Positions 9,544 to 18,213 of a DNA stretch of 37,416 nt are shown in pieces. This DNA is from Roseiflexus sp. (GTDB lineage Bacteria; Chloroflexota; Chloroflexia; Chloroflexales; Roseiflexaceae): positions 1 through 37,416 of the forward strand of contig JANXAL010000130.1 of NCBI GenBank assembly GCA_025062325.1. The letters are read 5' to 3'. The position numbers and the translations under genes are program-made. The first letter of the stretch is position 1, and each line of letters starts with the position of its first letter. The notes under the pieces were generated by a model. That model worked only from the letters and a program-made list of their open reading frames with translations, searched no databases and was not told the DNA's origin.

Positions 9544-10662
9544 TTACATTGACCGATCGGCGAGCCAGGCATCGATCTGCGGCCACAGACCACGACGCGC
9601 CCCGCTGCCAGCCATGATGCCAATATGACCGCCCGGCATAATGATCTGATGTTTATCGGTGCTGCTCACGCGGTCCAGAATGGTTTCCGACTGACACGGC
9701 GGCACGATGTGGTCCTGCCGTGCAATGATGTTGAGCAGCGATGCCTTGATATCTCCCAGATTGACTGGGCGACCGCGCATGATCCAGGTGCCGTTCATCA
9801 ACCGGTTTTCGCGGTAGAGATCAACAACCAGTTGACGATAGGCAGCGCCAGCAAACGGCACGCCATCGTTCACCCAGGTATTCATCGCCTGCCACGACTC
9901 AACGATCTTCGGATCGTCGAGGTTATCGAGCAGTCGCAGGTAGTTGCCGATAAGATTCTCCACCGGTTTGAGCAACTTACTGCCAATATCGATCATCTCG
10001 CCGGGGTAGTTGCCCGTCTGCTCCAAAATGGCATCGAGGTTGAAATACTCTTCCCTCAACCATTTGGGGAAAGGACCCATGCCCTCCTTGTTGGAGAAAT
10101 CGATGGGCGCCGTCAACAGGATCAGATTGCGCAAACCGTCGTCCGGGCGCATTGCTGCATAGATCGCCGAGAGCGTGGCGCCGATGCACCAACCGAGCAT
10201 GCTGAAATCGTGCTGCCCGCTATGCATCTGCATGCGGCGCACTGCGCGCGGCAAGTATTCGAGCGCATAGTCCTCGAAAGTCAGGTGTGCATCTTCCGGA
10301 CCAGGCGCCCCCCAGTCGATCAGATAGACGTTGTACCCTTGCTGGACCATGTACTCGACAAAGCTATTGCCAGGGCGAAGATCGAAGATGTAGGGCTTAT
10401 TGATCAACGCAAAAACGAGCAGCAATGGCACACGTTTGCGTTTCTCTACCGGCGCCTGGGGATAGTAATGGTACAGCGTTGTTTTATTGAGCGTCCAGAT
10501 CGCCTCCTTTGGCGTCTGCGCCACTTTTGCTCGCTGTTTGCCCGTGGCGATCTTGACGCCCATCTGATAGGCTTTTCCTAAGCGCTCAACCTCGGCGTAC
10601 AGGTTCTTCGCCAGGGTCGCCGGATCTACGGGAAAAAGCGTCGTTTCAGGCGACGTCGTCAT
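9544..10662 (-). CDS. phaC: Class III PHA synthase catalytic subunit
   Basis: Polymerises (R)-3-hydroxyacyl-CoA into polyhydroxyalkanoate at the granule surface. It is an alpha/beta hydrolase with the Cys form of the lipase box, 'LGWCIGATLS' (nucleophile C159), the acidic residue in 'ARQDHIVPP' (D317) and the His in 'MPGGHIGIMAG' (H346). At 372 residues it has the short class III/IV length rather than the class I length of about 590, so it needs a partner; the gene 46 bp upstream supplies it. AAGGAG is 7 nt before ATG 10662. Confidence 0.95.
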   Translation of the reverse strand: MTTSPETTLFPVDPATLAKNLYAEVERLGKAYQMGVKIATGKQRAKVAQTPKEAIWTLNKTTLYHYYPQAPVEKRKRVPLLLVFALINKPYIFDLRPGNSFVEYMVQQGYNVYLIDWGAPGPEDAHLTFEDYALEYLPRAVRRMQMHSGQHDFSMLGWCIGATLSAIYAAMRPDDGLRNLILLTAPIDFSNKEGMGPFPKWLREEYFNLDAILEQTGNYPGEMIDIGSKLLKPVENLIGNYLRLLDNLDDPKIVESWQAMNTWVNDGVPFAGAAYRQLVVDLYRENRLMNGTWIMRGRPVNLGDIKASLLNIIARQDHIVPPCQSETILDRVSSTDKHQIIMPGGHIGIMAGSGARRGLWPQIDAWLADRSM

Positions 10663-10708
10663 CGACTTGCTCCTTGCTACTCAAACGCGGCTTACGCTAT
10701 ACAATCCC

Positions 10709-11314
10709 CTAAAACCCCTCAATAGCATGATCTTCTTTGATCTCCTCCGGCGTTGGCGGCTCAGGATCGGGCGCTTGAATCGGGCGCGGCGCTTTGCGAC
10801 GCCGCTGCGCCGCCTCCGCTTGTTCCAGCGCCGCCTGTTGCAGTTTCTCGATCAGTTGGAGCATCTGGTCGGCTTTGTGGTCAAGCGCCGCCAGGCGCTG
10901 CTCCATGCCGTTGAGCTCTGCTCCCTCCTGCTTATTCTGCTCGAGCTGCTCGGTGAGCATCTCGACAATCACCGGCGTTTGCGTGCGTAACGCATGCGCC
11001 AGTTGGTCAAGCTTGATCTCGATGTCGTCGAGGCGCATTTCGATATTCGTCACCCGGCGCGCCAGCGTCGTTAGTTCCTCGCGTGACGGGAGATTCAAGC
11101 GCGCCAGCGACGTCCTCATCGACGCGTTGATCAACTGCTGCAGCGGCGCCGACGCAATCAGGTATGAGTCGAGCGTTGCGCCGATCCAGCGCGCAAATGT
11201 TTCAGTGTTGACCAGGTCGATCATTGCCTTGGCCCACGCGTCGAGCGTCGCATCGCGGGCCTTGCGCAGATTGCCAATCGGATCATTCGGATCAAAGCCG
11301 TTTCTCTGGCCCAT
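10709..11314 (-). CDS. phaE: PHA synthase subunit PhaE
   Basis: The non-catalytic partner of class III PhaC. The recognisable core is at residues 66-95, 'MRTSLARLNLPSREE' followed by 'LARRVTNIEMRLDDIE', which is the PhaE signature. The remainder is helical with a long coiled coil and a charged Pro/Glu tail ('DPEPPTPEEIKED'). At 201 residues it is short for PhaE (often 300 or more); the N-terminal part is reduced. I place the start at ATG 11314, where AAGGAG is 7 nt upstream, rather than at ATG 11332, which has no ribosome site and would put that AAGGAG inside the gene. First gene of the phaE-phaC-phaB operon. Confidence 0.85.
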   Translation of the reverse strand: MGQRNGFDPNDPIGNLRKARDATLDAWAKAMIDLVNTETFARWIGATLDSYLIASAPLQQLINASMRTSLARLNLPSREELTTLARRVTNIEMRLDDIEIKLDQLAHALRTQTPVIVEMLTEQLEQNKQEGAELNGMEQRLAALDHKADQMLQLIEKLQQAALEQAEAAQRRRKAPRPIQAPDPEPPTPEEIKEDHAIEGF

Positions 11315-11536
11315 CGGCGTCTCCTTCGACATATGCGCCCGACAAGGGCGGGTTGGATTCTGGGGTCTGCTGCTGTATGTTCCACGGCGCTTCTAGGCGC
11401 GCGTTTGCGTAGGGGATAAAAAAGACGCGCCTTGCGCAACCGCTTCTGCCATAAGGGTAGTCGAAACAGTTACAGAGAGGATACACGTTTCTAACACGTA
11501 TGCGCTGTGCTCAGCGAACAAGATGTTGTCATAATC

Positions 11537-11635
11537 GGGCGCGGATTTCCGCGGATGCAACGGATTCGTGCGGATTTGTGAAAGATGATCGATAGTCATC
11601 CGTCTCAATCCGTGCGCATCCGTGCGCTCTTGCGC
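11537..11635. repeat. GGAT/ATCC foldback repeat, copy 1
   Basis: About 100 bp that aligns almost end to end with 18235-18337. The left arm has repeated GGATTyG-type words and the right arm has ATCCGTCTCAATCCGTGCG, so a single strand can fold on itself. A half copy is at 17210-17255. Confidence 0.8.
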
Positions 11636-11663
11636 ACCACGCAACTGCACGGCAACATGGGTC

Positions 11664-11692
11664 TTGACAGCCAGTGGTTTGTGAGATAATAT
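11664..11692 (+). promoter_or_regulatory. Strong sigma-70-like promoter of the RNA candidate
   Basis: TTGACA at 11664-11669 and TAATAT at 11687-11692 are 17 bp apart (GATAAT at 11685 is an alternative with 15 bp). Transcription would begin at about 11698-11700, exactly at the first stem of the RNA candidate. Confidence 0.65.
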
Positions 11693-11860
11693 ATCCACGG
11701 TTCTGAGAAGTTGCTCCCTGGTAGGCGCGGCTTCACACAAACACAGGTTACTGCTCCGGCCCGTCGAAAGACGCTCAGGGGCGCACAGCAGGCTCGGCTT
11801 AAGGGCTTTGCCAAAGTAACTGCGGTATTCCCGCTACGTTGTGTGATAGCTTAAGCTCAA

Positions 11861-11914
11861 CCGGAGGGGGAGCGTTCGAGAGAGCGTTCGTCCCCTCCGG
11901 CGTTACCGGAGGGG
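11861..11914 (+). promoter_or_regulatory. Two mutually exclusive hairpins
   Basis: CCGGAGGGG occurs at 11861-11869 and again at 11906-11914, and its exact complement CCCCTCCGG at 11892-11900. The complement can pair with the first copy (22-nt loop) or with the second (loop CGTTA), not both. The first copy also overlaps the 3' strand of the closing stem (11856-11863). This is the layout of an antiterminator/terminator switch; the tail TCTCTGTTT after the second copy is only weakly U-rich. Confidence 0.5.
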
Positions 11915-12042
11915 TCTCTGTTTGGGGCAAAGTATGGACGAAGGCGGTCATCGTAGTCAGCGGCGCAGCGCCGCAACAGCATTCCCGGACGCACTTCCTC
12001 TCGCCAGTGTCGCGTAGTGTTGTCTGCGCTTCCTCTGTGACA

Positions 12043-12077
12043 CCCTGGCGAGAATGCTGCGCCAGGGTTGTTTGTTG
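12043..12077 (+). terminator. Rho-independent terminator
   Basis: CCCTGGCG (12043-12050) and CGCCAGGG (12060-12067) form a perfect 8-bp stem with a 9-nt loop, followed by TTGTTTGTTG. It would end a transcript of about 375 nt from the promoter at 11664. Confidence 0.7.
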
Positions 12078-12345
12078 AGCGCACGCCCGATGTGCCTGAC
12101 GCACATCCGTCATCTCCGGCGTTGCGCTGCTGTCTTCCAGGTCTCATTCAACAATTCGTCGTCGCACCGTGCAGCCGTCTGTCCGTCAACGACAGACGAA
12201 TAGGCGGGATTTGCTCTGCACTGTGCCTGATGTCGGTCAGCGCCGATCGCCTGGTCGTGCGCATGGTTTGCTGTGCCCTGCAGCAGACCGGTCTCTCATT
12301 CTCATTTGTGAACCCTTGACCGGAGGGCGAAAGGAGGAACCCGCG

Positions 12346-12576
12346 ATGCTGACGATCCGCTGGACGATGAACAAAGACGGACGCCTGACGGCGACCTTCG
12401 TGCGCCCGCAGACGCTGCGCCCGCTCTCGCTGGCAACCAACACGCCGCCACCGCTGTCGGTCAACGCTCACCGGACGCAACCCGCTGCAACGCCGCAGCG
12501 CGCCGCGACAGGCGGGCGAACGCCGGAACCGGCGCCTGAGGCATCAGGTCAGTTGATCCCGGCGCTGAAGTCGTAG
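12346..12576 (+). CDS. Small Pro/Ala/Thr-rich hypothetical protein
   Basis: A 76-residue product that I do not recognise. The start is well supported: AAAGGAGG at 12330-12337 with 8 nt to ATG 12346. The first 20 residues ('MLTIRWTMNKDGRLTATFV') could form strands; the rest is rich in Pro, Ala and Thr and probably disordered. It has no signal peptide or membrane segment. It is the first gene of a likely operon with the ferritin-like protein 31 bp downstream and the ABC transporter after it. Being short and low-complexity, it might be a small accessory or unstable regulatory protein. Confidence 0.65.
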   Translation: MLTIRWTMNKDGRLTATFVRPQTLRPLSLATNTPPPLSVNAHRTQPAATPQRAATGGRTPEPAPEASGQLIPALKS

Positions 12577-12607
12577 TTATCGGCGAACTGAGCATGGAGG
12601 AAGGCGT

Positions 12608-12994
12608 ATGCTGACAACCCTGCTCTTCTCCCGCCGGGCGACGCTGCACTGGATGTTGATCGATGCCGTGCAGCGCGCCTGGCGCCGCCATCAGGTGATT
12701 GTGCCGCTCTACCGGCGCCTGGCGACCCTGGCGCCCGATGAGCAGCGCGAAATCGTGTTGCTGCAGATGGCTGAACGGGAGGTTCGCCACCAGCAGCAGT
12801 ATGAGCGAATGCTGGCGCGGCTGCACGCGCCGTTGCCTGAAGGTCTCGCCTTGTTGGATCGAACCTGGCTCTGGTTGTTGCCGCGCTGCGGTTCATCAAT
12901 CGCGCTGCGCTGGGCTGCGTGGATCGAGCAGCAGGATGCGCGGGCGATTCTGGAAGCGGCGCTGCTGCTGAAAAACCATGCTCGTGTCTCTTGA
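12608..12994 (+). CDS. Ferritin-like helical protein (VIT1/rubrerythrin-type, single domain)
   Basis: A 128-residue, all-helical protein with GGAGGAAGG just before ATG 12608. The stretch 'LYRRLATLAPDEQREI' followed by 'LLQMAEREVRHQQQYERML' resembles the N-terminal ferritin-like domain found before VIT1/CCC1-type transporters and in rubrerythrins, including one Glu-x-x-His pair ('EVRH', near residue 60). A second helix pair ends in 'WAAWIEQQDARAILEAALL'. Only one clear ligand pair is visible, so it may bind a single metal or none. There is no transporter domain fused to it; instead an ABC permease follows 146 bp downstream. A role in metal or oxidant sensing alongside that transporter is inference. 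Confidence 0.6.
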   Translation: MLTTLLFSRRATLHWMLIDAVQRAWRRHQVIVPLYRRLATLAPDEQREIVLLQMAEREVRHQQQYERMLARLHAPLPEGLALLDRTWLWLLPRCGSSIALRWAAWIEQQDARAILEAALLLKNHARVS

Positions 12995-13140
12995 ACTATG
13001 ACGTTGCCCGCTGTGCAGTGGCATTGGCTTTAACCGGCTCAGCCAACTGAGTGCGTCGCAGTGGGCGTTCCGGCAACGATGAAGTTGCCCTCAATCCAGC
13101 ACTGGAGATCGCCTTTCATTCGTATGTCAGGAGGCTGCCC

Positions 13141-15156
13141 ATGCGCGCGACCTTTCCCGATGCTGGCGTACTGCGCCCGCGACTCAAAGTTACACCGTGG
13201 GACGTTGTTGTTGTTCCGCTGATCATCGTCATCATTCTCTTGCTGACCATCGCCTTTCAGGGTGCGTCTCAGCCGTTCGACGTCGCTACAACGCCCGATC
13301 TGACGGTCAGCCTGGATCCGATCAATCTGCCTTACTACGGACTGCGGACGGTGTTCCGCATGTTTCTGGCGGTATTGTTGAGTCTGCTCTTCACATTCAC
13401 GGTTGCGACGCTTGCCGCCAAATCGCGGCGCGCTGAAGTGGTGATTATTCCGGCGCTGGATTTCCTCCAGTCGTTGCCGATCCTTGGCTTTCTGACAGTG
13501 ACGACGGCGATTTTTCTCGGCATGTTCCGCGGCAGCCTGCTTGGGCTTGAAGCAGCCAGCATCTTTGCAATCTTCACTTCGCAGGTCTGGAATATGGCGT
13601 TTAGTTTCTATCACTCGTTGATCACCGTGCCCAGAGAGCTGCAAGAGGCTGCTGCGGTGCTGCGCCTCTCGCCATGGAAGAAGTTCTGGAAGCTCGAAGT
13701 GCCGTTTGCGATGCCGAGCCTGATCTGGAACACGATGATGTCAGTGTCGGGCGGCTGGTTCTTCGTCGTCGCTTCGGAGGTCATCTCGGTGGTCGGGCGC
13801 GACAATGACCAGTACCTGCCCGGGGTCGGCTCGTACATCGCCCTGGCTATCGAACAGGCTGATGTGGCGGCGATGGTCTACGCCGGTCTGACGTTGTTGA
13901 TCATCATTCTGATCTATGACCAGTTGATCTTCCGTCCGATCGTCGCCTGGTCCGAAAAGTTCAAGTTCGAGCAATCCGAAGCGCAAGAAGTGGCGCAGTC
14001 GTGGATGTTGCGTCTGTTGCAGCGGTCGGGGTTTGCCAGCAGCCTGAGCGCTGTCGGCGCTGCGCTCCGGCGCAGCATCCCGACGTTCCCAGTCCGAGAA
14101 GCCCCCGGTCCACGGGTGGAGACGCAACCTGACCCCCGACCGATTGATCGGGTGATCGACCGGGTCTGGTATGGGCTGGTCATTGCCGGGACACTGTGGG
14201 CGGTCTGGTTTCTGGCGACCTACATGTTTGGTCCGGGACTGGGATTCGAGAATGGGCGCGTGCTGGCGGCCAACCCGAATGTGAACACCGATCTCGACCC
14301 AGAGATCGCCCGCCAGTTTGCCGCGTTCGGGGTGACGGTCAACCCGGATCAGACGGTCTGGCTGTCGGATGTCTGCGCAGCAACGGCTGGCGGGACGCAG
14401 GTGAGCGCAGGGCTGGCGGAGTTGTTGCGCAACGAGCGCGTTGGCGTACCGGACGACCTGGCGGCTGCCTGCGCCGTGCCGATGGCGCCTGCCGGCAAGG
14501 TGGCCTGGTCGGAAGTGCTGGAGTGCCTCTGGCTTGGGTTGCTCACGACCATGCGCGTGGTGATCTGGATCGGCATCTCCATGCTGGTATGGACGCCGAT
14601 CGGCGTCTGGATCGGGCTACGCCCGCGTGTCGCGCAATTTGTGCAGCCGCTGGCGCAGTTTGCGGCGGCGTTCCCGGCCAACCTGCTCTTCCCAGTGGCG
14701 GTGGTGCTGATTGCCACGTACTCGTTGCCGCAGAACCTGTTCCAAGCGCCGCTCATGATCCTGGGGGCGCAGTGGTACATCCTGTTCAACGTGATTGCTG
14801 GCACGGTCAGCATCCCGAATGACCTGAAAGAAGCGGCGCAAGTTTTGGGGCTGCGGGGTTGGGCATGGTGGCGCAAACTGATCATTCCGGCAATCTTCCC
14901 GGCGTTCGTCACCGGCGGCATCACGGCGTCGGGAGGCTCATGGAACGCCTCGATCGTCTCTGAAGTCGTGTCGTGGGGCGCGACGACCCTGACGCTGAGC
15001 GGTCTGGGCGCCTATATTTCCTACTGGAGCACCGGCGAGTTCAACCCGCACGTCGGGCTGGGCATGCTGGTGATGGGGCTGCTCGTGCTGGCGTTCAACC
15101 GGTTGTTCTGGCGACGGCTCTATGTTCTGGCTGAGACGCGCTTCCGCCTGGATTAG
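13141..15156 (+). CDS. Fused two-domain ABC transporter permease (NitT/TauT-like)
   Basis: A 671-residue inner-membrane protein made of two permease domains in one chain. Each has the EAA loop that docks the ATPase: 'EAAAVLRLSPWKKFWKLEVP' near residues 165-185, and 'EAAQVLGLRGWAWWRKL' near 564-580. Both halves resemble SsuC/NrtB-type permeases for nitrate, sulfonates or bicarbonate. Between them, about residues 360-455, lies an insert of some 95 residues with three Cys, predicted outside the membrane, in the place where most systems rely on a separate binding protein. AGGAGG is 7 nt before ATG 13141. The ATPase gene follows after 17 bp. No substrate-binding protein is nearby, so the substrate and even the direction of transport are open. 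Confidence 0.88.
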   Translation: MRATFPDAGVLRPRLKVTPWDVVVVPLIIVIILLLTIAFQGASQPFDVATTPDLTVSLDPINLPYYGLRTVFRMFLAVLLSLLFTFTVATLAAKSRRAEVVIIPALDFLQSLPILGFLTVTTAIFLGMFRGSLLGLEAASIFAIFTSQVWNMAFSFYHSLITVPRELQEAAAVLRLSPWKKFWKLEVPFAMPSLIWNTMMSVSGGWFFVVASEVISVVGRDNDQYLPGVGSYIALAIEQADVAAMVYAGLTLLIIILIYDQLIFRPIVAWSEKFKFEQSEAQEVAQSWMLRLLQRSGFASSLSAVGAALRRSIPTFPVREAPGPRVETQPDPRPIDRVIDRVWYGLVIAGTLWAVWFLATYMFGPGLGFENGRVLAANPNVNTDLDPEIARQFAAFGVTVNPDQTVWLSDVCAATAGGTQVSAGLAELLRNERVGVPDDLAAACAVPMAPAGKVAWSEVLECLWLGLLTTMRVVIWIGISMLVWTPIGVWIGLRPRVAQFVQPLAQFAAAFPANLLFPVAVVLIATYSLPQNLFQAPLMILGAQWYILFNVIAGTVSIPNDLKEAAQVLGLRGWAWWRKLIIPAIFPAFVTGGITASGGSWNASIVSEVVSWGATTLTLSGLGAYISYWSTGEFNPHVGLGMLVMGLLVLAFNRLFWRRLYVLAETRFRLD

Positions 15157-15173: not shown

Positions 15174-16511
15174 ATGGCAACCATTTTTGCCCCAAAGACA
15201 ACTGCAAGCGTTGGGAAAGTCATCCTGAGCGCCCGCAATCTGCATAAAATCTTCAAGACGCCGGAAGGCAACGATCTGCTGGTGCTCGACAACATCAATC
15301 TGGACCTGGCGGAGGGCGAGATTGTCGCCCTGCTGGGGCGCTCCGGCTCCGGCAAATCGACGTTGCTGCGCTGCCTGATCGGGCTGATCTCTCCGTCGAG
15401 CGGCGAGGTGCGCTACCGCAACCGGTTGGTGACTGGACCAATGCCGGGGATGGCGATGGTCTTCCAATCGTTTGCGCTCTTCCCCTGGCTGACGGTGCTG
15501 GAGAACGTCGAACTCGGCCTGGAGACGCAGGGCATCCCGGAAGGCGAACGGCGGCGGCGGGCGCTGGAGGCGATTGACCTGATCGGTCTCGATGGGTTCG
15601 AGAGCGCATATCCGAAGGAACTGTCCGGCGGCATGCGCCAGCGAGTCGGGTTTGCCCGCGCTCTGGTGACCAACCCCGATGTGCTGCTGATGGACGAGCC
15701 ATTCTCGGCGCTCGATGTGCTGACCGCCGAGAACCTGCGCACCGAACTGCTCGATCTGTGGGAGGAGCGGCGCATTCCGACGCGGGCGATTTTGATGGTG
15801 ACGCACAACATTGAAGAGGCGGTCCTAATGGCGGATCGGGTGCTCATTCTCAGTTCCAATCCGGGACGGATCATCAGCAGCCAGCGGATCGACCTGCCGC
15901 GTCCGCGGGATCGCAACGACCCGGCGTTTCTTGCTACTGTCGAGACGATCTACCGGGCGATGACGACGCCGGAAGCGGCGTTTGCCAGCGCCGCAGCGGT
16001 CGAGATCGATCATGCCAGCCTGGGCATGCGGCTTCCCGAAGCGGAAGTGGCGCAGATTATCGGCTTGATTGAACGGGTGGAGGCTGGGCCAGATCGCGGG
16101 CGCGACGATCTGCCGACGCTGGCGGCGGAGATGCAACTCGATGCGGACGATCTCTTCGTCATCACCGATGCGGCTGAGTTGCTGGGCTTCGCGCAGACCC
16201 GCGAAGGGGACATTACGCTGTTGCCGGAAGGCGTGAAACTGGCGCGGAGCGACATCCAGGAGCGCAAGGTCATTTTTGCCGAGCACCTGATGAACCGCGT
16301 GCCGCTGGTGGCGCATATCCGGCGCGTGCTCGCCACGCGACCCGACCATCGCGCGCCGCGTGAGCGGTTCCTTACGGAACTGGAAGATTTCATGGGCGCC
16401 GAAGAGGCGGCGCGCACGCTCGATACGGCGATTGACTGGGGGCGCTACGCCGAACTCTTCGAGTACGACGCGCGCGAGGGGCGGCTGCGCCTGCCGGAGA
16501 ACGGCGGGTGA
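15174..16511 (+). CDS. ABC transporter ATPase with C-terminal AAA-associated domain
   Basis: Powers the fused permease encoded just upstream. Residues 15-265 form a NitT/TauT-type ATPase: Walker A 'GRSGSGKST' (55-63), Q-loop 'MVFQSFALFPWLTV', signature 'LSGGMRQR', Walker B 'VLLMDEPFSALD' and the His in 'LMVTHNIEEAV'. From about residue 285 to 440 there is an added domain ('LPEAEVAQIIGLIERVE' ... 'DITLLPEGVKLARSDIQERK'), like the AAA-associated C-terminal domain (PF09821) known from this subfamily, perhaps a regulatory winged helix. Length is 445 residues against about 260 for SsuB. AAAGGAG stands before ATG 15174. A MITE-like repeat begins 72 bp after the stop. Confidence 0.92.
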   Translation: MATIFAPKTTASVGKVILSARNLHKIFKTPEGNDLLVLDNINLDLAEGEIVALLGRSGSGKSTLLRCLIGLISPSSGEVRYRNRLVTGPMPGMAMVFQSFALFPWLTVLENVELGLETQGIPEGERRRRALEAIDLIGLDGFESAYPKELSGGMRQRVGFARALVTNPDVLLMDEPFSALDVLTAENLRTELLDLWEERRIPTRAILMVTHNIEEAVLMADRVLILSSNPGRIISSQRIDLPRPRDRNDPAFLATVETIYRAMTTPEAAFASAAAVEIDHASLGMRLPEAEVAQIIGLIERVEAGPDRGRDDLPTLAAEMQLDADDLFVITDAAELLGFAQTREGDITLLPEGVKLARSDIQERKVIFAEHLMNRVPLVAHIRRVLATRPDHRAPRERFLTELEDFMGAEEAARTLDTAIDWGRYAELFEYDAREGRLRLPENGG

Positions 16512-16583
16512 GTCTTATCTGCGGGGTGATGAGTCCCCCGTCGAACCTGCGCGCCGGGACGCGCGCCCTCTGCGCTGCGGGCT

Positions 16584-16807
16584 ATGAACATTCACAAAAT
16601 AATCCGACGCTGCGCCGGCGATGGTTTTTGAAAAATTATTCCGCTATCCACCCGCTCGCCTGGCGCCTAAAGTCGCAGGCTACGGTTGCGCAGCCCGCCT
16701 TCGCGGACTGCACTGAGCGATATCGGATTATTTTCTCAAACTCCAAAAGCCGCAGGCTACGGTTGCGCAGCCTGCCTGCGCAGGCTTTACGGATTAATTA
16801 TGTTCAT
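16584..16807 (-). mobile_element. MITE-like element carrying the GC-rich repeat, locus B
   Basis: A 224-bp block bounded by imperfect inverted ends: ATGAACAT at 16584 and ATGTTCAT at 16800-16807, each followed inward by an AATCCG-type word. Inside, on the minus strand, are two copies of the GC-rich unit also seen at 1141-1290 (16651-16709, and a shorter one at 16750-16787), with the same GGAGTTTGAGAAA spacer and the same GGATAGCGGAAT flank. It codes for nothing. It lies between the ABC operon and a truncated Nudix gene. Confidence 0.6.
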
Positions 16808-16844
16808 CAGCCCGCAGCGTCCCAGCACATTCGAGGAGCTACCG

Positions 16845-17102
16845 ATGACACCGCACGATGCTCAGATCGACCCGCAGCGCCCGATCGCCGCGACAACGCG
16901 GTTCGCCGCGTGCGGCGTCGTGTATCGCTGGACGCGCGACATCGCTCTTGAGTTTCTCATCATAAAGAAACGCAATCACTGGACCCTGCCGAAGGGCCAC
17001 CTTCTGCAAGGTGGGTCGGCTGCTGAAGCGATATTACGAGAAGTCGCCGAGGAGACGGGCGTTCGGGGCATAGTGTGCAGCGAACTGCTGCAAACGTTGT
17101 AA
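16845..17102 (+). pseudogene. Truncated Nudix hydrolase
   Basis: An 85-residue product with GAGGAG before ATG 16845. It has the Nudix opening ('RFAACGVVYRW', 'EFLIIKKRNHWTLPKGH') and most of the Nudix box, but stops 13 residues after it, at 'SELLQTL', where a full protein needs about 50 more. The first Glu of the box (GX5E) is Gly57, while 'REVAEETGV' is kept. I see no continuation in the other two frames after 17102, and a half copy of the foldback repeat begins about 110 bp further on. Most likely a gene cut short by deletion or repeat insertion. Confidence 0.7.
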
Positions 17103-17255: not shown

Positions 17256-17367
17256 CAGCTTTCTGTCACAAACAGGCCCATGTGATTCCGTTGCCTCCAC
17301 GTCGTTCCCATGCTGCCACATGGCGCTCGGACCCGGAAGCGGAGAGGAGACGAACGGAGAAGCTGTC

Positions 17368-18213
17368 ATGCAAGATGTTGTCACTGAGCTGATGCGTTTG
17401 CTGGGACCGATCAATCTCGACGTGATCTTTCGACTGTTACTGACAATGGTACTGTGTGGGTTCATCGGTCTGGAACGCTCGAGTCACGAGCGGGCGAGCG
17501 GTTTTCGCCCGCACATTCTGGTAGGGTTGGGCGCCTGCCTGGTGACAATGGCGGGGGCGTATGGCTTTGCCGAGTTGACCGGCGAGCGCGATGCACTGCG
17601 GGTTGCCAGTTATGTGGTTTCGGGGATCGGATTTATGGGGGCTGGCGCGATCCTGCGCCACGGCACGACGGTGCGCGGTCTGACGACCGCTGCCACGCTG
17701 TGGGGCTGCGCTGGCATCGGCGTCACGGTGGCGACCGGTCTGGGATGGCTGGCGATTGCTGGCACTGTGCTGTTCCTATTCACACTAACAATTCTGGAGT
17801 GGTTCGAAGCGCGACTCAACTTCGGCAGTCCGGTGAGCCGGCTCCGCATCCACCTGTACGACGACAATCGCGCCGTCGGAAAGGCGCTCAACGCGCTTGC
17901 CCGGCTGGGGGCGCCAGTCAAACGCGCCACGGTGCTGCCCGGCGCTGGAACCTCGGCGCTGCTGGATGTCGAACTTGCGCGGGCGCTCACTGCTGATCAG
18001 GCGCCATTGCTGGCGAAGCAACTGCTGACGCTCAAAAAGTATGTCGCGCAGGTCGATACCACTGTTGCACCGCTGGATGAACCTGCGGACGAGGAGGAAG
18101 CGGCGGAAGCGCACGAGGAAGAGGTGGTGCCGCTCAATCTGAGCGACGACGACCTGCTGAAGGATCTCAACGAGCAAGACGAGAAAGAAAAAACGCCAGC
18201 GCCGCGCGCGTGA
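17368..18213 (+). CDS. MgtC/SapB-family membrane protein
   Basis: A 281-residue inner-membrane protein of the MgtC/SapB family, linked in other bacteria to low-magnesium growth and membrane energetics; its exact action is not settled. Family marks: 'RLLLTMVLCGFIGLERSSHER', 'GFRPHILVGLGACLVTMAG', 'RVASYVVSGIGFMGAGAIL' and 'VRGLTTAATLWGCAGIGV', making about five membrane helices in the first 150 residues. A soluble ACT-like region follows, then a very acidic tail ('DEEEAAEAHEEE', 'LSDDDLLKDLNEQDEKEK') that could bind cations; that is inference. ATG 17368 has GGAG 8 nt upstream; ATG 17320 in frame has none. Confidence 0.88.
   Translation: MQDVVTELMRLLGPINLDVIFRLLLTMVLCGFIGLERSSHERASGFRPHILVGLGACLVTMAGAYGFAELTGERDALRVASYVVSGIGFMGAGAILRHGTTVRGLTTAATLWGCAGIGVTVATGLGWLAIAGTVLFLFTLTILEWFEARLNFGSPVSRLRIHLYDDNRAVGKALNALARLGAPVKRATVLPGAGTSALLDVELARALTADQAPLLAKQLLTLKKYVAQVDTTVAPLDEPADEEEAAEAHEEEVVPLNLSDDDLLKDLNEQDEKEKTPAPRA

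Follow-up and report, generated by a model that had tools for sequence, protein, structure and literature searches.

What kind of RNA is encoded between positions 11,664 and 12,077 of a Roseiflexus sp. contig (GenBank JANXAL010000130.1), and which genes does it control? The window referred to throughout is the whole stretch of DNA that was analysed, 37,416 nucleotides in length. A first-pass annotation, made from the letters alone, had proposed an undescribed structured RNA gene or leader at this place, with its own promoter and terminator, a stem plan recalling 6S RNA and no reading frame served by a ribosome-binding site. The features described below are collected in Table 1.

Table 1. Leader elements and operon genes in the window, with the basis of each assignment
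Feature	Position	Strand	Basis or remark
Sigma-70-type promoter, TTGACA-17-TAATAT	11664–11692	+	Also at matching distance in many relatives
M-box (ykoK) Mg2+ riboswitch aptamer	11710–11876	+	RF00380, 120.4 bits; covariation
Antiterminator hairpin 1 (CCGGAGGGG...CCCCTCCGG)	11861–11900	+	Predicted fold, -31.8 kcal/mol; 5' arm overlaps P1 3' arm (11861–11872)
Intrinsic terminator 1, 9-bp stem and TCTCTGTTT	11892–11923	+	Equivalent in relatives
Leader-peptide ORF, 27 codons, MDEGGHRSQRRSAATAFPDALPLASVA	11934–12017	+	Conservation
Candidate antiterminator 2, TCTCGCCAG (11999–12007) with CTGGCGAGA (12045–12053)	11999–12053	+	Excludes terminator 2
Intrinsic terminator 2 (terminator of the first-pass annotation)	12042–12076	+	Conserved in relatives
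Small ORF, 76 aa, conserved N-terminus	12346–12576	+	No Pfam or NCBIfam match
128-aa ORF, conserved in these operons	12608–12994	+	No Pfam or NCBIfam match
Duplicated ABC permease, two BPD_transp_1 domains	13051–15156	+	Pfam, structure model
ABC ATPase, C-terminal AAA_assoc_C domain	15174–16511	+	Pfam
MgtC family protein	17320–18213	+	Pfam

An M-box riboswitch and its first terminator

As judged from its sequence, the RNA adds one more member to a class already known, the M-box (ykoK) Mg2+ riboswitch. The Rfam family RF00380 matches it over the full length of the model (positions 1–169) and scores 120.4 bits, the cut-off being 44 (E 1.3e-26), and 45 of the 46 aligned consensus pairs are standard pairs in the window aptamer. 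Covariation in homologues, the lack of which had been named beforehand as a refutation, is present: when 28 aptamers of the phylum Chloroflexota are aligned, 28 of the 43 predicted pairs show compensatory changes. Furthermore, members of this family lie upstream of Mg2+ transport genes, and here MgtC is found in the window operon and homologous M-boxes precede MgtE, CorA or Nramp. A single M-box is present in the window genome; the class, order and phylum have M-boxes in 24 of 150, 23 of 82 and 43 of 400 genomes, respectively. Known behaviour of the class suggests Mg2+ as the ligand and an OFF state at high Mg2+.

The promoter, stems and terminator from which an undescribed or 6S-like RNA gene had been deduced are real, but the full-length RF00380 match rules that idea out and leaves it a negligible probability; no other Rfam family scores above its own cut-off at the element, and no 6S RNA match appears in Rfam at the gathering cut-off or at E ≤ 1. 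As proposed, the element is a structured leader that carries a promoter and terminators of its own. The promoter is complete (TTGACA at 11664–11669, a 17-nt spacer, TAATAT at 11687–11692) and is the sole promoter-like site within 11350–13100, where 0.3 would be expected. Exact M-box pairs make up two of the stems (11730/11850, 11747/11820) and the hairpin with the GAAA cap (11762–11773); the supposed closing stem 11698/11863 falls outside the conserved structure, in which P1 is formed by 11714–11721 and 11861–11872. The Rho-independent terminator (hairpin 12042–12068, tail 12068–12076) is likewise conserved in relatives. Overlooked, in turn, were a nearer intrinsic terminator and a conserved reading frame; the denial of any frame with a ribosome site was mistaken.

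This nearer terminator consists of a stem at 11892–11914 and a U-rich tract at 11915–11923, and the terminators of relatives lie at the same place. Antiterminator 1 would use up its 5' arm, as the overlap of their pairs indicates, so that the two hairpins are mutually exclusive: a folded aptamer should lead to terminator 1 and an unfolded one to antiterminator 1. By analogy with its class, the expression platform is of the standard Mg2+-OFF type. With sufficient Mg2+, the aptamer would fold, P1 would keep 11861–11872, and the free CCCCTCCGG strand would form terminator 1, stopping transcription. At low Mg2+, 11861–11869 would pair with 11892–11900 as antiterminator 1 and the polymerase would read through. 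The class is assigned here by homology and its action is read from that of the class.

A conserved leader-peptide ORF and a second terminator

The leader ORF stands out most clearly when M-box leaders of the phylum are compared. An ORF preceded by a Shine-Dalgarno sequence (SD) and beginning ATGGAN, of 9–60 codons and within 40–180 nt of the aptamer, was found in 32 of 51 leaders against 0.59 expected from dinucleotide shuffles. Asp or Glu at codon 2 was required by this search, so acidity is partly a selection criterion and the test is the excess over shuffles held to the same criterion. The ORF was found in families f1, f2, f18, f19, f23, f49 and f52, and not in M-box families f10, f30, f31, f35 and f80. 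The SD is weak in the window genome (GGGG) and AGGAGG-like in relatives. The peptide begins MDEGGHRSQRR in the window, and MDEGGH, MDDGHPG, MDAIPGHS, MDDPHQHPG, MDAGPSSS, MDDDG and similar starts occur across the leaders. Differences within the MDAGPS group number 6, 10 and 42 at codon positions 1, 2 and 3, which argues that the peptide and not the RNA alone is conserved. Conservation covers the first 8–12 codons only; the length and the C-terminus vary. As the ORF is present with ABC, MgtE or Nramp targets alike, it belongs to the leader.

Acidic early codons in the leader ORFs of Mg2+ genes are known to provoke ribosome drop-off and so to alter downstream expression in MgtL and mgtQ (PMC11282234, PMC8092293). 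The ORF described here resembles the mgtL type in being short, in its early acidic or proline residues and in its place in a Mg2+-transport leader, and its conservation points to translation. Compared with the EPDP motif of MgtL, the window has MDEGG and relatives have MDDPHQHPG, MAHADPDG and MDDDQ; the acidic N-terminus of the window peptide (Asp2, Glu3) is weaker than EPDP. Chloroflexota M-box leaders appear to carry an mgtL-like acidic leader peptide, which looks new, being unreported as far as the literature was searched.

Terminator 2 begins 24 nt after the ORF stop. By a strict rule it is found in 17 of the 25 ORF-bearing f1/f2 leaders, with 0–3 of 200 shuffles equally good, and by eye in at least four more (L003, L006, L021 and L025); its spacing from the ORF stop is similar across f1/f2. 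The same rule did not find it in most families outside f1/f2, and the double-terminator region outside the aptamer has no Rfam entry. One relative (G088) has two M-boxes (L036 and L038), and in L036 the MgtE looks truncated and terminator 2 has been lost. The complementarity of antiterminator 2 exceeds that of shuffles with p 0.037 in the window and 0.007–0.13 in its nearest relatives; across all leaders it is not above shuffles and it is significant around the window clade only. The idea that such an antiterminator acts generally in these leaders, linking the ORF to terminator 2, was rejected, the window clade supporting it and other leaders not.

Terminator 2 is probably a second attenuator, and we infer by analogy that the leader ORF works through MgtL/mgtQ-like ribosome drop-off. 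Readthrough of terminator 1 would expose the ORF, whose N-terminus is acidic and continues with Gly, Pro or His. Full translation would place a ribosome over 11999–12017, antiterminator 2 would be blocked and terminator 2 would form. At low Mg2+, early drop-off, as in MgtL, would free the 11999–12007 strand and transcription would continue. The ORF and terminator 2 are supported by conservation in this second step, and the mechanism is drawn from likeness to MgtL.

Several known systems share parts of this arrangement. The M-box leaders of RF00380 have the same aptamer, pairing, Mg2+-transport gene context and P1-overlapping antiterminator/terminator platform; the present leader differs from them in its conserved ORF, its second intrinsic terminator (f1/f2) and its ABC target. 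In the mgtL leader of E. coli and Salmonella mgtA (PMC11282234), too, a Mg2+-transport gene is preceded by a short ORF with early acidic residues that lies ahead of a termination site, but the ORF in Chloroflexota follows an M-box, has a different sequence and precedes intrinsic, not Rho-dependent, termination, and ribosome drop-off is here a prediction. Similarly, the mycobacterial uORF2/Rv1805A is a conserved small ORF directly 3' of an M-box, with a conserved, proline-containing N-terminus; it has a translational platform with Rho-dependent termination and is described as restricted to mycobacteria (PMC12810186), whereas the terminators here are intrinsic and the phylum is another.

The operon and its ABC transporter

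The genes behind the leader encode a probable type I ABC importer, to judge by a permease with the BPD_transp_1 fold and an ABC ATPase. A Pfam scan of the operon proteins gave no family of substrate-binding proteins, and the ABC proteins have no sequence membership in the CorA, MgtE, MgtA/B or Nramp-related Mg2+ importers. The true start of the permease is probably ATG 13141, which is conserved as M31 and has AGGAGG just upstream. Cotranscription of MgtC with the ABC genes is uncertain, as about 0.8 kb separates them; the 147-aa frame in this gap (16508–16951) lacks conservation and might not be a real gene. Upstream of the riboswitch, a PhaC-like polyester synthase and a 207-aa protein that matches no Pfam family are encoded divergently on the minus strand (9544–11332), and a single CRISPR-DR28 repeat-like match lies on the same strand at 1235–1258 (38.2 bits, cut-off 35).

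The AlphaFold model of the permease is of good quality (pLDDT 85, pTM 0.84) and is closest to the Thermus thermophilus ferric ion importer FbpBC (9j4r), followed by CmpB and NrtB. The modelled fold is that of an importer and leaves several substrates possible. An insert at about 394–485 is found in the window subgroup, is missing from the paralogues of about 590 aa and is confidently folded in the model. The permease fold is shared with the CmpBCD bicarbonate and NrtBCD nitrate transporters and with FbpBC; the present system differs in its fused duplicated permease, its AAA_assoc_C ATPase, its M-box control and the lack of a binding protein found in the operon.

Relatives vary this operon, with MgtE added in L039, three CorA-like genes added in L040, and the CorA set present in L027, which has lost the permease and keeps a remnant of the ATPase. 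Comparison of L027 (G040) with L040 (G048) shows three tandem CorA-like genes and two small ORFs to have been inserted or exchanged in the M-box operon; these CorA-like genes have YGQNF/YSMNF instead of the usual GMN motif. The 128-aa ORF is retained even in L027.

Families f1, f2, f19, f23 and f35 have an M-box in front of the permease and ATPase genes, the loci outside f1/f2 being L201, L202 and L203 (f35), L206 (f19, with MgtE) and L212 and L220 (f23). On a tree of 101 permeases from a quick search, M-box linkage changed at least four times even when only well-supported branches are counted, the linked permeases occupying at least four separate branches. The other M-box operons of the phylum contain MgtE, Nramp-like, CorA or P-type ATPase genes (the fragmentary L046 left aside). 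Furthermore, a paralogous ABC pair without an M-box adjoins MgtE in L088 and L089. Transporters of this type, with AAA_assoc_C and a duplicated permease, are widespread in Pseudomonadota and Chloroflexota, and no riboswitches were found near the paralogous ABC loci or at nine loci of other phyla. An alphaproteobacterium has the order permease, ATPase, MgtC (L107, 6678–10254), its MgtC frame being cut by the contig end. Mg2+ gene neighbours (MgtC, MgtE, CorA, Nramp) lie within about 7 kb of 5 of 80 ABC loci outside Chloroflexota; as support such neighbourhoods were judged weak, with only L107 looking operonic.

An M-box-controlled ABC transporter was not found in the literature searched, and an ABC importer is not among the main transporters named in a 2026 review, so that the ABC target of the M-box looks new within that literature. 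That the transporter imports Mg2+ or a Mg2+ complex is a well-supported guess. MgtE and CorA are encoded in the window genome as well, so the ABC system is not its only candidate importer.

Competing readings and significance

Taken together, the locus is probably the leader of a Mg2+-starvation operon, with an M-box switch, a leader-peptide attenuator and an ABC transporter most likely importing Mg2+. The gene content is observed directly; the proposed product, an ABC transporter that lacks a binding protein, is probably accompanied by MgtC and most likely takes up Mg2+ or a complex of it, is a functional reading of it. A plain M-box leader, in which terminator 1 alone matters and the ORF and second hairpin are remnants or else an ordinary small gene together with its terminator, would be enough for Mg2+ control, and M-boxes of several families have no ORF; it is nevertheless rather unlikely, because families whose M-boxes have different targets share the position, start and N-terminus of the ORF, and because terminator 2, conserved in f1/f2 with similar spacing to the ORF stop, would silence the downstream genes unless overridden. 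Less likely again is a small protein acting in trans in place of a cis attenuator peptide: it would agree with the peptide-level conservation and with Rv1805A, an M-box-linked uORF whose N-terminus is likewise conserved and for which no role is known (PMC12810186), but the restriction of conservation to the first 8–12 codons and the terminator closely 3' of the ORF in f1/f2 speak against it.

The substrate is the more evenly balanced question. The ABC transporter might carry Mn2+ or some other metal, bicarbonate, or a chelate of Mg2+, for example with citrate, co-regulated as useful under Mg2+ starvation, which is a serious possibility short of an even chance. Kinship in sequence and fold to CmpB, NrtB and OpuA favours it, the likeness to the anion transporters CmpB and NrtB counting against the Mg2+ importer reading, and mycobacterial M-boxes lie upstream of manganese-type transporters (PMC12810186). 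Against this stand the best fold match, a metal-cation (ferric) importer; the four loci (L201, L203, L212 and L220) where no transporter genes other than the ABC pair follow the M-box; and G424, a 99% complete draft genome with an M-box-ABC locus, in which no other known Mg2+ importer was detected (no MgtE, CorA or Nramp match among the families searched, and a lone class-II P-type ATPase of Ca type, 536 bits versus 254 for the Mg model). The fuller proposal, that AAA_assoc_C/duplicated-permease transporters are ATP-driven Mg2+ importers controlled in Chloroflexota by an M-box and then by an acidic leader peptide reading ribosome stability, is offered tentatively and falls somewhat short of being probable.

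The M-box itself is textbook knowledge; the ABC target and the second regulatory layer are not. Bacterial Mg2+ importers named in the literature consulted comprise CorA, MgtE, MgtA/B and Nramp-related proteins, with the ABC class absent, and the present finding points to an ABC family in hundreds of species as a candidate. The latest earlier addition, the Nramp-related Mg2+ transporter (PMC4072509), was likewise tied to Mg2+ through its M-box; the present candidate differs in being of ABC type. If confirmed, the leader peptide would mean that riboswitch and ribosome-based Mg2+ sensing are stacked in one leader, which would make the physiological division between the two sensors testable.
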